Origin: Desulfuromonas sp. AOP6
Lineage (GTDB): Bacteria; Desulfobacterota; Desulfuromonadia; Desulfuromonadales; SZUA-540
Direction: 5' to 3'
DNA: 64,000 nt
Assembly (NCBI RefSeq): GCF_009731355.2
Contig: NZ_AP022810.1
Location: 3,066,001-3,130,000, forward strand
Part shown: positions 27,359-34,954 of the stretch, piece after piece
Layout: each line of letters begins with the position of its first letter
Numbering within the stretch: position 1 is the stretch's first letter
The notes under the pieces: model-generated
The model's input: only the letters and a program-made list of their open reading frames with translations
The model's database searches: none
Told to the model about the DNA's origin: nothing
Program-made: the position numbers and the translations under genes

Positions 27359-27745
27359 CTAGTGGTCATGTCCACAGCCATGTCCGTGGCCATGACCACC
27401 GCAGGTTCCCTGCTGGGTTAATTCGGGCAGGCTGTCCTCGCGCAGACAGGCAAGGTTGTCGGCCACCGTCACCCCTTGCGCCTGAAAAACCTTGAGGCCG
27501 GCCTGGTTCAAGCCCAGAAGAGCACCGCTGCCGATGCCGCCGACGACAATGGCGTCTACCTGCTGCCCACCAAGGGCGCGCAGGGGCTTGCACTGCCCGT
27601 GGGCATGATCCTTGTCGCCGTTACCCACGGCCTGCACGTCGCGGCTCTCCGTATCGACAACCACAAACAGCGGCGCTGAACCGAAATGACCAAAGACCAC
27701 ACTTTCCATCCCTTCATTACTCTCTACCGGAAAACAGATTTTCAT
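27359..27745 (-). CDS. NifX/NafY-like dinitrogenase cofactor-binding domain protein
   Basis: A 128-residue single-domain protein of the dinitrogenase iron-molybdenum cofactor biosynthesis family: MKICFPVESNEGMESVVFGHFGSAPLFVVVD, then ALGGQQVDAIVVGGIGSGALLGLNQAGLKVFQA. The tail GGHGHGHGCGHDH is histidine-rich and likely binds metal. Such small members are found outside nitrogenase clusters and may bind an Fe-S or Mo-containing cofactor. The AAGGAGGT site fixes the start at 27745. It is the first gene of the minus-strand cluster and lies just downstream of a perfect palindrome. Confidence 0.88.
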   Translation of the reverse strand: MKICFPVESNEGMESVVFGHFGSAPLFVVVDTESRDVQAVGNGDKDHAHGQCKPLRALGGQQVDAIVVGGIGSGALLGLNQAGLKVFQAQGVTVADNLACLREDSLPELTQQGTCGGHGHGHGCGHDH

Positions 27746-27767
27746 GGCGTACCTCCTTGAGTTGTTT

Positions 27768-27781
27768 TGTGCATATGCACA
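27768..27781. promoter_or_regulatory. 14-bp perfect palindrome, candidate operator
   Basis: TGTGCATATGCACA, a perfect dyad 22 bases upstream of the NifX-like gene's ATG. Its TGTG/CACA arms resemble CRP/FNR-type or ArsR-type half-sites. The position fits an operator or activator site for the NifX-like to IscU-like operon. Confidence 0.5.
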
Positions 27782-28113
27782 TTTAAACCCGGTCGCCACA
27801 ATTGTCAACAGCTTTTTCACCCAAAAGCGTGTATTTTGCCATTAAGGAATTGTTACATCTTCTACCGTGCTTTACCTTCTGGGTTGACATTCATTATTAA
27901 AACTTGTCCTCTGACCCCTAAAAAGTTTTTATATCATAGGCTTAGACTTGTCCACCTCTTGCTTTGCATAGACTTTATCTATGAGTGGCATTGCCGAACA
28001 CCTATACTTTTCCTTGACGGGCGATAACTTTCATGCCAGGATGTGCCGTCGCTCACATTCCATATCACTACGGGCCTGGCCCGACCTGTCTCATTGACGA
28101 AAGGAGTGTTCTC
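27782..28113. other. Intergenic region, no gene recognised
   Basis: This AT-richer stretch lies between divergent operons. TTGACA occurs at about 27892 and TATACT at 28003-28008, but they are too far apart to be one promoter. A small hairpin (CATAGA 27967-27972, TCTATG 27978-27983) lacks a T-run. An open frame extending the rhodanese upstream to 28033 lacks a ribosome binding site and looks spurious. Confidence 0.5.
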
Positions 28114-31768: not shown

Positions 31769-31931
31769 AGCCGTCTCCGTTTTTGGTTTGCAGGTGCCGT
31801 CATGGCCGCAAAGGTGAGGGGGGCGAATCTGGCGCCCTGCCTTGAGCCCGGTTCGACTCTAGCAAATTTGCTCCTTTCTGCCTAGCCGCCCCCAGCCGGG
31901 GGAGGTGCTTCCCTTTTCGCTCCCCTTTGCC

Positions 31932-31937
31932 TATAAT
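31932..31937 (+). promoter_or_regulatory. -10 element upstream of dinG
   Basis: A perfect TATAAT 24 bases before the ATG of the helicase gene. No convincing -35 hexamer is found at 16-18 bases upstream, so the element is suggestive only; if used, the leader is very short. Confidence 0.3.
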
Positions 31938-31961
31938 GCCCCCTTCCCTAAAGGACACCCC

Positions 31962-34514
31962 ATGAAACACACGTTTTCCCCTGAAGTCCGCCTGCTACTG
32001 CGGCAGGCCATTGACGACGCGCGCGGCAACGAAGTCTTCTTTCTCGGCCGCACCGATGCCGACCGGCTGGTCGTCAGTGTCGAAGTCCTGGCCCGGGGCA
32101 ACAGCGAAGCGGTCCCTGCCATTCTGCAGGAGTGCGCCTACGGCGACGTGGTCATCCACAACCACCCCTCCGGACACCTGCAGCCCTCTGGGGCGGATGT
32201 GGAAATCGCCTCGCGGCTTGGGTCACTGGGGGTCGGTTTCTACATTGTGGATAACCCTGTGGACAATGTGTATAAGGTAGTGGAAGCCTTTAACTCGAAG
32301 GACGTGCAGCCGGTTGAACCGCAGCGTGTTGACGACCTGCTCGGTCCCGACGGGATTATTGCCCGTACCCTGCCGGGCTACGAAGACCGCCCGGAACAAC
32401 TGCGCATGGCCTTTGCCGTCGCCGAGGCTTTCAACAAGGGGCGCCTGACGGTCATCGAAGCGGGGACAGGCACCGGCAAAAGTCTGGCCTACCTGACCCC
32501 GGCCATTCTCTGGTCCCTGGGCAACGAAGAGCGGGTGGTGATCAGCACCAACACCATCAATCTGCAGGAACAGCTCATCCGCAAGGATATCCCCTTTCTG
32601 CAGCGGGTCAGCAACCTGGAATTCCGCGCCGTGCTGGTGAAGGGGCGCGCCAACTATCTCTGTTTGCGCCGCAGTGAAAACATCCGACAGGAGCCGGGGC
32701 TCTTCGAAGACGAGCTGGCCGGCGAGCTCACCAGCATCCTCGAATGGGCCGGACGCACCAGTGACGGCTCCAAGGAGGAGCTCCCTTTCATCCCCCGTGA
32801 ACAGGTATGGGAAGAGGTGCGCTGCGAAATTGACCAGTGCTCGCGGGTGCGGTGCGCCCACTACAACCGCTGTTTTTTCCACAAGGCCCGCCGCCAGGCG
32901 GCCCAGGCCGATGTGCTGGTGGTCAATCACGCCCTGCTGCTGTCGGACCTGGCCCTGCGCCAGCAGACGGACAACTACACCGCCGCCGCCGTGCTACCCC
33001 CCTTCGACCGCATCATTCTCGACGAGGCGCACCACCTGGAGGATGTGGCCACCCATTTCTTCGCCAGTCAGGTCACCCGTTTCTCCTTCGCCCGCGTGCT
33101 CAACAAGCTGCGCCATCCGCGCAAACCCGAGAAGGGCTTGCTCCCCCGCTTCCTCAACACCCTGGCCGCCAAGCTGCCCGACAGCCTGGACGAGCTCTAC
33201 CGGGCCCTGCACGGCCGCGTCGAAAACCTCCTCATCGACCGCCAGACCCTCTTCGACCGCTCGGTGCAGGATCTGGAGGGGATCGGCCAGGATCTCGCCG
33301 CCGCTCTCGGCCGCCCTATCCGCGAACGGGAGGAAATCAAGCAGCGGGTGGTGGCCGACTTCGCCGCCGGCGAGGTCTGGGAAGCTCTCTGCGAGCGGGT
33401 GCGCGACCTCGCCAAAGAGACGGATCGCCTCGGCAAGGGCGTCCGCGCCCTGCTCAAGGACTGCGGACGCCTGCCCGACGACGTGCATGAACACCTCGGC
33501 TCCAGCCTCACCGACCTGCGCGGCATCGCCGGCCGCCTGGAAAGTATTGCCGACGACCTGCGCTTCTTTGCCGCCGCCGAAGAGGGCACCTGCGCCTGGT
33601 TCGAGATCGCCGAGGGGCGCATCGGCCGGGGCACTGGCGTCGTCACCCGCCTGTGCACGGCCCCTCTGGAGGTGGCCGGCAACCTCAAGGCCGCCGTCTA
33701 CGACCGCTTCCGCTCAGTAGTCATGACCAGCGCCACCCTCTCCGTCGGCGGCCAGTTCAGCTACTTCAAGCACCGGGTCGGCCTCGACCGGGCTGAATCG
33801 GCGCGGGTAAGCGAACTGCTGCTGGCCAGCCCCTTCAATTTCGCGCAACAGGCCCTGGTCGCCATTCCCACCGACATTCCCGAGCCGGGGCGGCCCGATT
33901 ACCCGGCCACCGTGCGCGACCTAGCCGAACGGGCCATCCTCGCCGCCGACGGCCGCACCTTTGTCCTCTTTACGGCCTACAGTCTGCTGCGCCAGGTCTA
34001 TGGCGAAGTCGCCCCCATTCTCAGCGCTCGCGGTTATCACTGTCTGCGCCAGGGGGAGGAAAACCGCCATCGCCTGCTGAAAAAATTTTCCGGCGACCCC
34101 ACCAGCGTCCTCTTTGCCACCGATTCCTTCTGGGAAGGGGTCGACGTGCCGGGGCGGGCCCTCGAACAGGTCATCATCACCCGACTCCCCTTCAAGGTGC
34201 CCACCGAGCCCGTGCTGGAGGCCCGCGCCGAGGCCATCGAGCTGGCCGGCGGCGATCCTTTCATGGAATACACGGTGCCGCAGGCCGTCATCAAGTTCAA
34301 GCAGGGCTTCGGCCGTCTCATCCGCCACCGCGAAGACCGCGGCGTCGTGCTTATTCTCGATGCCCGCGTCGTCAAAAAGGGCTACGGCCGCATCTTTCTG
34401 CGCTCCCTGCCCGAGGCCCGCGTGGTGGCCGCCCCCACGGCGGAGGTCTTTGCCGCCATGACCGACTTCTTCACGGTGAGCGAAACTGTGCCCCCGGCAG
34501 AGGACGAACCATGA
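31962..34514 (+). CDS. DinG-family helicase with N-terminal JAMM metalloprotease domain
   Basis: An 850-residue fusion. Residues 1-110 form a JAB/JAMM domain with the full motif: E24, then H66-x-H68-x7-S76-x2-D79 (HNHPSG segment), the arrangement of metal-dependent isopeptidases and RadC. The rest is an XPD/DinG superfamily 2 helicase: Walker A AGTGTGKS (K173), iron-sulfur cysteines at C234, C293, C298 and C304, and the DEAH box D354-EAHH. Motifs V/VI are in FATDSFWEGVDVPG and QGFGRLIRHREDRG. It should unwind DNA or RNA-DNA hybrids 5' to 3'. Its Nudix partner overlaps by four bases. The start at 31962 has an AAAGGA site. Confidence 0.9.
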   Translation: MKHTFSPEVRLLLRQAIDDARGNEVFFLGRTDADRLVVSVEVLARGNSEAVPAILQECAYGDVVIHNHPSGHLQPSGADVEIASRLGSLGVGFYIVDNPVDNVYKVVEAFNSKDVQPVEPQRVDDLLGPDGIIARTLPGYEDRPEQLRMAFAVAEAFNKGRLTVIEAGTGTGKSLAYLTPAILWSLGNEERVVISTNTINLQEQLIRKDIPFLQRVSNLEFRAVLVKGRANYLCLRRSENIRQEPGLFEDELAGELTSILEWAGRTSDGSKEELPFIPREQVWEEVRCEIDQCSRVRCAHYNRCFFHKARRQAAQADVLVVNHALLLSDLALRQQTDNYTAAAVLPPFDRIILDEAHHLEDVATHFFASQVTRFSFARVLNKLRHPRKPEKGLLPRFLNTLAAKLPDSLDELYRALHGRVENLLIDRQTLFDRSVQDLEGIGQDLAAALGRPIREREEIKQRVVADFAAGEVWEALCERVRDLAKETDRLGKGVRALLKDCGRLPDDVHEHLGSSLTDLRGIAGRLESIADDLRFFAAAEEGTCAWFEIAEGRIGRGTGVVTRLCTAPLEVAGNLKAAVYDRFRSVVMTSATLSVGGQFSYFKHRVGLDRAESARVSELLLASPFNFAQQALVAIPTDIPEPGRPDYPATVRDLAERAILAADGRTFVLFTAYSLLRQVYGEVAPILSARGYHCLRQGEENRHRLLKKFSGDPTSVLFATDSFWEGVDVPGRALEQVIITRLPFKVPTEPVLEARAEAIELAGGDPFMEYTVPQAVIKFKQGFGRLIRHREDRGVVLILDARVVKKGYGRIFLRSLPEARVVAAPTAEVFAAMTDFFTVSETVPPAEDEP

Positions 34515-34954
34515 ATGAGCGGTCTCTGCGCAACCGTCACGTCGTCACCGCTTTTTTACGGCATCAAGGTAAGATCCTGCTGCTGCAGCGCAGCGAGCGG
34601 GTACGCACCTACCCAGGCTCTTGGGCGGCGGTTAGCGGTTCTCTTGAGGAATCGACCCCACTGGCGCAGGCGCTACGAGAGATTCGGGAGGAGACCAGCC
34701 TGGGTGAAGCCGACCTCTGCCTGGTCGCCACCGCCCCTTGCCTCGAGGTGGCCGATACGGAACTGGCAACGCGATGGCTTATCCACCCTTTTCTTTTTGA
34801 GGTGATCGACTCGCCCGGCATTCGCCTGGACTGGGAGCATGAGAAGAGCCGCTGGGTCGAAGCGGCGGAGCTGGCCCGTTACCGGACCGTTCCTGCCCTG
34901 ACCCAGGCCCTCGCCGCCTGCCTGCAAACGGAAAGCGGCAGTAAGGTCGATTGA
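34511..34954 (+). CDS. Nudix hydrolase
   Basis: A 147-residue Nudix protein. The box is GSLEEST...REIREETSL (G-x5-E-x7-REUxEExGU with a small variation: GSLEESTPLAQALREIREE), so the catalytic glutamates are present. VVTAFLRHQGKILLLQRSERVRTYPGSWAAVSG precedes it as in nucleotide-pyrophosphate hydrolases. The substrate may be an oxidised or aberrant NTP, but this is not readable. It overlaps the helicase stop by four bases (ATGA), so the two are translated together, consistent with a nucleic-acid or nucleotide housekeeping role. Confidence 0.9.
   Translation: MNERSLRNRHVVTAFLRHQGKILLLQRSERVRTYPGSWAAVSGSLEESTPLAQALREIREETSLGEADLCLVATAPCLEVADTELATRWLIHPFLFEVIDSPGIRLDWEHEKSRWVEAAELARYRTVPALTQALAACLQTESGSKVD

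Follow-up and report, generated by a model that had tools for sequence, protein, structure and literature searches.

Does the JAB domain that precedes a DinG-type helicase in Desulfuromonas sp. AOP6 act as an enzyme, and in place of which helicase does the fusion protein stand? The gene concerned lies at 31962..34514 (+) of the window, the whole 64,000-nucleotide stretch analyzed here (NZ_AP022810.1, positions 3,066,001 to 3,130,000, read on the forward strand). Its translation, protein P0001, is a stop-free 850 amino acids (aa), and the open reading frame (ORF), Pfam and NCBIfam identify it as a RadC-like DinG. A first-pass annotation, made from the letters alone, had taken the JAB–helicase fusion as its title finding. 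This finding is a rediscovery, because Cheng 2025 (PMC11981726, section 3.8) already describes a subgroup "RadC-like DinG", defined with the residues E, H, H and D and with a topological match to PfJAMM1 and CsRpn11; the subgroup is stated there to be without any research so far. The architecture is thus not new. What our analysis adds is the near-invariance of the JAB site together with its losses, the placement of the fusion as a counterpart of YoaA, and the presence of HolC in the window's order.

Architecture of the fusion protein

Residues 1-130 of P0001 (31962..32351, +) form an N-terminal RadC-type JAB domain, identified by Pfam, AlphaFold2 and Foldseek, whose fold extends to about residue 108. 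Pfam RadC (PF04002) exceeded its gathering score of 22.1 both in the whole protein (29.5 bits, at residues 13-89) and in residues 1-130 taken separately (33.3 bits). The full-length RadC models stayed far below their cut-offs (PRK00024, 25.6 versus 180; TIGR00608, 20.0 versus 133.85); this marks the N-terminal part as a domain of RadC type rather than a RadC protein. It has the E-V-F and HNHPSG..PS..D motifs of RadC, which is its best fold and profile match, but it differs from full-length RadC in being without the N-terminal part of that protein and in being fused to a helicase.

Behind this domain, residues 133-838 (32358..34475, +) constitute an iron-sulfur (Fe-S) superfamily 2 helicase of the YoaA/DinG family, with Pfam matches to DEAD and Helicase_C_2 (155.2 bits). 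As the first-pass annotation had stated, the helicase is intact: Walker A K173 (32478..32480, +), the DEAH box at residues 354-357 (33021..33032, +) and the four Fe-S cluster cysteines, C234 (32661..32663, +) and C293, C298 and C304 (32838..32873, +), are all present. Among the 125 distinct sequences described below, every one keeps K173, C234, C298, C304 and the D and E of the DEAH box, while C293 and the H of the box are each kept in 124. The top NCBIfam model was YoaA (NF053712; 600.6 bits, cut-off 680), followed by DinG (NF008729, PRK11747; 432.2 bits, cut-off 598). P0001 is therefore YoaA-like, but the NCBIfam cut-off does not file it as YoaA. With the RadC-like DinG of Cheng 2025, exemplified by Desulfuromonas soudanensis, it shares the N-terminal RadC-like domain, the E/H/H/D residues, a YoaA-like Fe-S helicase and a C-terminal helix.

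The JAB active site is nearly invariant

The first-pass annotation had assigned a JAMM metal site to E24, H66, H68, S76 and D79, and these residues were found at the claimed positions: H-N-H-P-S-G-H-L-Q-P-S-G-A-D fits H-x-H-x7-S-x2-D, and together with E24 it conforms to the EXnH(S/T)HX7SXXD motif of JAMM/MPN+ proteins (H66-N67-H68-x7-S76-x2-D79), with Asn in the middle. E24 (codon 32031..32033, +) is the presumed general acid-base, by analogy with E22 of AfJAMM (PMC300881); H66-N67-H68 (32157..32165, +) would supply two metal ligands and a bracing Asn, and the segment from S76 to D79 (32187..32198, +) the oxyanion-side Ser and the third metal ligand. According to the description of AfJAMM (PMC300881), the Asn-in-the-middle variant occurs in distant JAMM relatives and Asn can do the bracing of the catalytic Glu that is otherwise done by Ser or Thr, the counterparts of E24 and S76 do not bind metal, and S77 is credited with stabilizing the tetrahedral peptide intermediate.

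All five residues (EHHSD) were retained in 124 of the 125 distinct sequences, the window included, and the remaining one reads GRREE. The E24 codon, the H66-N67-H68 codons and the S76-to-D79 segment each gave the same count, the middle residue of HxH was Asn in all 124 intact sequences, and the invariant JAB positions include E24, H66, N67, H68, S76 and D79. This count derives from 141 rows that cover the five sites, taken from loci whose frames scored at least 350 bits with the family profile; the JAB sites are not covered in L054, L057, L060 and L067 (truncated or frameshifted), L148 or L150, and L033, L055 and L070 were dropped because the match ran past a stop. Set A1 comprised 62 loci plus the window (9 of the 71 usable loci were left out by choice), and set A2 comprised 35 loci plus the window. 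Retention in 124 of 125 sequences indicates that the five-residue motif is not a chance occurrence, and the core of the first-pass annotation, a full JAMM-type metal site on the same chain as a DNA helicase, is borne out. Over 105 rows the JAB domain was conserved about as well as the helicase: identity to the window averaged 64% for residues 5-100 and 61% for residues 135-838.

The same annotation had assumed that RadC-like JAB domains are usually inactive-looking. A separate RadC gene was present in each of 38 relatives, and E, H, N, H, S and D were kept in 30 of the 30 separate RadC genes inspected in the window's order, so that the premise fails here. The RadC frames were chosen by the HNHPS pattern, and such a frame was found in all 30 loci; H, N and H are for this reason not independent in the count.

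The AlphaFold2 model of the JAB domain had a predicted local distance difference test score (pLDDT) of 86.5, and its best Foldseek match was RadC (2QLC, E 9.1e-7). VIA-align comparison confirmed a JAB/MPN fold in the model, with Z 8.8-9.8 and a root-mean-square deviation (rmsd) of 2.9-3.2 Å over 102-109 residues: BubCD gave Z 9.8, Rpn11 (4OCL) 9.7 (rmsd 2.9, 104 aligned), PfJAMM1 (5LD9) 9.2 (rmsd 3.2, 102 aligned) and RadC (2QLC) 8.8 (rmsd 3.1, 102 aligned). BubCD, Rpn11, CSN5, PfJAMM1 and RadC were tied within about one Z unit, and the fold as modeled does not separate a peptidase from a nuclease. In the full-length model (pLDDT 87.6, predicted template modeling score 0.82), the best solved-structure match of the helicase was DinG (6FWS; Z 36.9, 637 aligned, rmsd 6.7); FANCJ and XPD were rejected as the closest solved relatives, since DinG ranks first.

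Distribution and apparent loss of the JAB domain

Among the 58 genomes of the order's sample, 57 matched P0001 at E ≤ 1e-3, and the fusion or pieces of it were present in 56: one genome (G002, 78% complete) matched solely through its separate RadC, and another (G053, 84% complete) was without a match. A scan of 84,980 species gave 582 relatives; the 80 best were retained and come mostly from Desulfuromonadales and Geobacteraceae. These best 80 of 582 loci, from a scan that favors close, full-length relatives, also provide the known carriers outside the phylum, with loci labeled KSB1, Calditrichota, Auribacterota, Planctomycetes and Acidimicrobiia (the last possibly mis-binned). When 296 genomes of the phylum were scanned with the JAB profile, 28 matched at 132-203 bits, in long frames except at contig ends, and the other matches were RadC-like, at most 36 bits, and nearly all in short frames. 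With the decayed member described next, fusion carriers amount to 29 of the 296 genomes.

The first-pass annotation had named relatives without the metal ligands as the case that would speak for a merely structural domain. Such relatives exist, but they are rare. In the decayed member (L123:1489-5043, genome G109) E24, H66, H68, S76 and D79 are all lost, giving GRREE, and the helicase motifs are intact; the JAB profile scored 31 bits in its 1185-aa frame, which is a full-length family member by the family profile (779 bits). The JAB-less member (L148:1498-3837), one gene in a 74%-complete genome (G347), likewise has intact helicase motifs; it is a full helicase (857 bits), and none of the six reading frames around it holds a JAB domain. 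Each case was a single genome among those examined. The tree places both members among the fusions, where they share a starred clade of five rows with three intact ones, and a topology that holds all intact members together was rejected by the approximately unbiased (AU) test (p-AU 0.00076). On these grounds the decayed and JAB-less members appear to be secondary losses of the domain. Members of either kind are a difference from the subgroup as described in Cheng 2025.

The fusion in the probable place of YoaA

Over the helicase, P0001 shared 34% identity (323 bits) with Escherichia coli YoaA and 26% (164 bits) with DinG. In the tree, the fusions and the decayed and JAB-less members lie on one side of a branch that parts them from the YoaA-type and other DinG rows (Shimodaira–Hasegawa-like approximate likelihood ratio test 77.6, unstarred), YoaA being the adjacent group. 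Searched with E. coli YoaA at E ≤ 1e-30, 143 of the 296 phylum genomes gave a match: the 29 carriers, 110 with YoaA-type proteins and 4 with long DinG-type proteins. Among the matches listed for the 29 carriers, one or two each and for most carriers not every place, no separate YoaA was better than the carrier's own fusion (best E 1e-45 to 1e-58). The best matches of the carriers were weaker than those of full-length YoaA genes, and the places listed are halves of the fusion frame. Conversely, none of the best 30 of the 110 YoaA-type loci had room for a JAB domain, their N-terminal extensions being 5-87 residues. By its sequence identity, the helicase belongs beside YoaA. Because no separate YoaA was seen in the 29 carriers and 110 other genomes have YoaA-type proteins, the comparison also suggests that the fusion stands where YoaA otherwise stands. 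The fusion differs from E. coli YoaA in its added JAB domain, in R619/T620, which are not conserved, and in missing the NCBIfam YoaA cut-off.

HolC in the window's order

The C-terminal helix of P0001 (residues 826-838; 34437..34475, +) is present in the full-length model at the position of the HolC-binding segment of YoaA, as judged from secondary structure and alignments. Cheng 2025 (PMC11981726) argued that the C-terminal helix of RadC-like DinG does not serve HolC, since HolC is absent from such organisms. In the window's order this is not the case. A gene for HolC, the chi subunit of DNA polymerase III, is found in the window's own genome, outside the window (G000:C1:1355345-1355749; 102.2 bits, cut-off 25.4), and HolC scored above the Pfam cut-off in 36 of 38 relatives of the order. 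These data correct the published statement of absence for the order of the window; D. soudanensis is not included by name in the comparison. In the phylum sample, HolC was detected in 38 of the 296 genomes; of these, 31 carry YoaA and 7 the fusion, the 7 being all those sampled from the order, and none is without either. It is not a general partner of the fusion, because 22 of the 29 carriers are without detected HolC, and no HolC match came from the 7 fusion carriers that belong to the class but not to the order.

In E. coli, W57 and F64 of HolC are needed for binding to YoaA (PMC8378479), and both were kept in 16 of 16 HolC sequences. On the helicase side, R619/T620 of YoaA were rejected as predictors of HolC binding: R619 was also missing in five of six JAB-less YoaA proteins from HolC genomes, so that its absence from the fusion does not discriminate. 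Recruitment by HolC is therefore plausible in the window's order, from the genes and residues present, and not in general.

The hypergeometric values obtained (5.8e-7 and 1.5e-14) are only descriptive because the 296-genome counts are not phylogenetically independent, and the first is in part built in, because carriers were removed from the YoaA set by definition.

Proposed mechanism and alternatives

We see about an even chance that RadC-like DinG takes the place of YoaA in this lineage as a fork-repair helicase that carries a working, metal-dependent JAB hydrolase in cis. The ATP-driven Fe-S helicase, presumably 5'-3' as in its family, would load where stalled forks or gaps expose single-stranded DNA, with HolC and SSB as its probable means of loading in the window's order, and the RadC-type JAB domain would then hydrolyze in cis, with the aid of its metal, what the helicase exposes. 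The JAB chemistry would most likely be JAMM-like amide (peptide) hydrolysis, which is favored because E24 and S76, not themselves ligands, are as invariant as the metal ligands; nuclease activity would be its main rival.

Several observations weigh against this proposal. JAB catalysis is dispensable in the decayed and JAB-less lineages, where, to judge from their motifs, the helicase has been kept. P0001 falls short of the YoaA cut-off of NCBIfam, HolC went undetected in most carriers of the phylum sample, and the alignments show no conservation in the fusion of R619/T620, on which YoaA depends to bind HolC. No known LexA box stands out upstream of the gene, unlike SOS-controlled E. coli yoaA, and no assay of any RadC-type JAB was found in the literature searched.

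What the JAB domain would cut is the point on which the alternatives differ. The protein could be a helicase-nuclease, a possibility that we consider real but rather unlikely. Its model would be ExoDinG of Staphylococcus aureus and Bacillus subtilis, an established subgroup of helicases with an N-terminal nuclease (PMC11981726, PMC12345164), in which, as in the fusion, a DinG-family helicase carries an additional catalytic domain at its N terminus; in ExoDinG the domain at this place is a DnaQ-type exonuclease and not a JAB. In their treatment of RadC, Zhang 2012 (PMC3482391) and Iyer 2017 (PMC5512222) argue that this clade is nuclease-like and without a groove for the ubiquitin tail, the latter taking RadC-DinG fusions as a pointer to a nuclease role, and the stretch from E24 to H66 is short in P0001 (42 residues, versus 50 in the RadC of the same genome). 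However, the DALI search reported by Cheng (PMC11981726) gave no nuclease, JAMM/MPN proteins fill our own fold list, and the general base and a serine of the AfJAMM S77 type are kept in 124 of 125 sequences. This last point also bears on a reading in which the helicase is the sole activity and the JAB domain, its zinc retained for stability, serves docking or regulation. In its favor, MPN- proteins often act as scaffolds without catalysis, and intact helicases are found in the decayed and the JAB-less member. Yet both exceptions are single genomes, and E24 and S76, whose AfJAMM counterparts are not ligands, are as invariant as the ligands; we judge this reading improbable.

Two further readings specify a protein substrate. 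In one, the domain would be an isopeptidase tied to the helicase, in the manner of BRCC36/BRISC, that removes ubiquitin-like proteins (Ubls) from fork proteins; in its favor, the top structural matches include BRISC, BRCC36, Rpn11 and bacterial BubCD. The missing groove reported for the RadC clade (PMC5512222, PMC3482391) would leave no seat for a Ubl tail, and no universal neighbor was found in the locus clusters, though Ubl or E1/E2 genes were not sought genome-wide; this role is very improbable. Hardly less of a long shot, though somewhat more credible, is a one-chain machine for DNA-protein crosslinks, in which a helicase recruited by HolC and SSB would unfold the crosslinked protein and the JAB domain would cut it in cis. 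The protease of the eukaryotic parallel, SPRTN, has an unrelated fold. The crosslink reading leans on the precedent of FANCJ with SPRTN as described in PMC12279946, by analogy only: an XPD/DinG-family Fe-S helicase acts there with a metalloprotease on DNA, as two proteins rather than one polypeptide. No title among the papers listed by a literature search (8 of 80) concerned RadC in crosslink repair. If true, such a machine would parallel FANCJ plus SPRTN, with a protease fold unrelated to that of SPRTN.

Neighboring genes and upstream region

Immediately downstream, an ORF at 34511..34954 (+) encodes a Nudix hydrolase (PF00293, 47.1 bits) and overlaps the helicase stop. The coupling proposed by the first-pass annotation holds as far as this overlap is concerned (ATGA, start at 34511), but not as functional coupling: a Nudix neighbor was found in only 2 of the 104 loci that offered 600 bp or more of downstream sequence (the window's genome and one congener), in a BLASTP search (E 1e-8) that very divergent Nudix genes could escape. 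With the pairing not conserved beyond the genus, the Nudix gene was rejected as part of the system. The same ORF has a weak PADLOC match to PDC-S07 (35.8 bits). For P0001 itself, the PADLOC matches are type IV CRISPR DinG models (442.7 bits), which reflect helicase likeness, and a defense system was rejected as an explanation, no CRISPR search having been made. All-against-all clustering gave no universal neighbor gene, the largest cluster spanning 28 loci. Upstream and in the same direction, 11 loci of the window's wider lineage (L036:247-1695 and its counterparts in ten further loci) have an ORF that looks RtcB-like from its sequence. Elsewhere in the window, a small ORF at 27359-27820 (-) has a His/Cys-rich tail (CGGHGHGHGCGHDH) and by eye looks like a metal-cofactor protein.

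Five LexA-type patterns were searched, with at most one mismatch, in 107 upstream regions. Only the Geobacter-type pattern was slightly above shuffled sequences (6 loci versus a mean of 2.8 and a maximum of 5), and this excess was judged not convincing as a sign of SOS control. Several loci (31920-31961 in the window; upstream of L033 and L048) have a TATAAT-like box no more than some tens of bases ahead of the ATG, which suggests a short leader.

Significance

On HolC, the data correct what Cheng 2025, the sole description of this subgroup that we found, states. RadC is a widely distributed bacterial JAB protein for which roles in DNA repair, as a nuclease and as a peptidase have each been proposed. 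The non-fused counterpart YoaA has a partner, HolC, and an azidothymidine tolerance phenotype, and the fusion would thus provide a handle on a RadC-type domain in cells, with the decayed and JAB-less members as natural controls.
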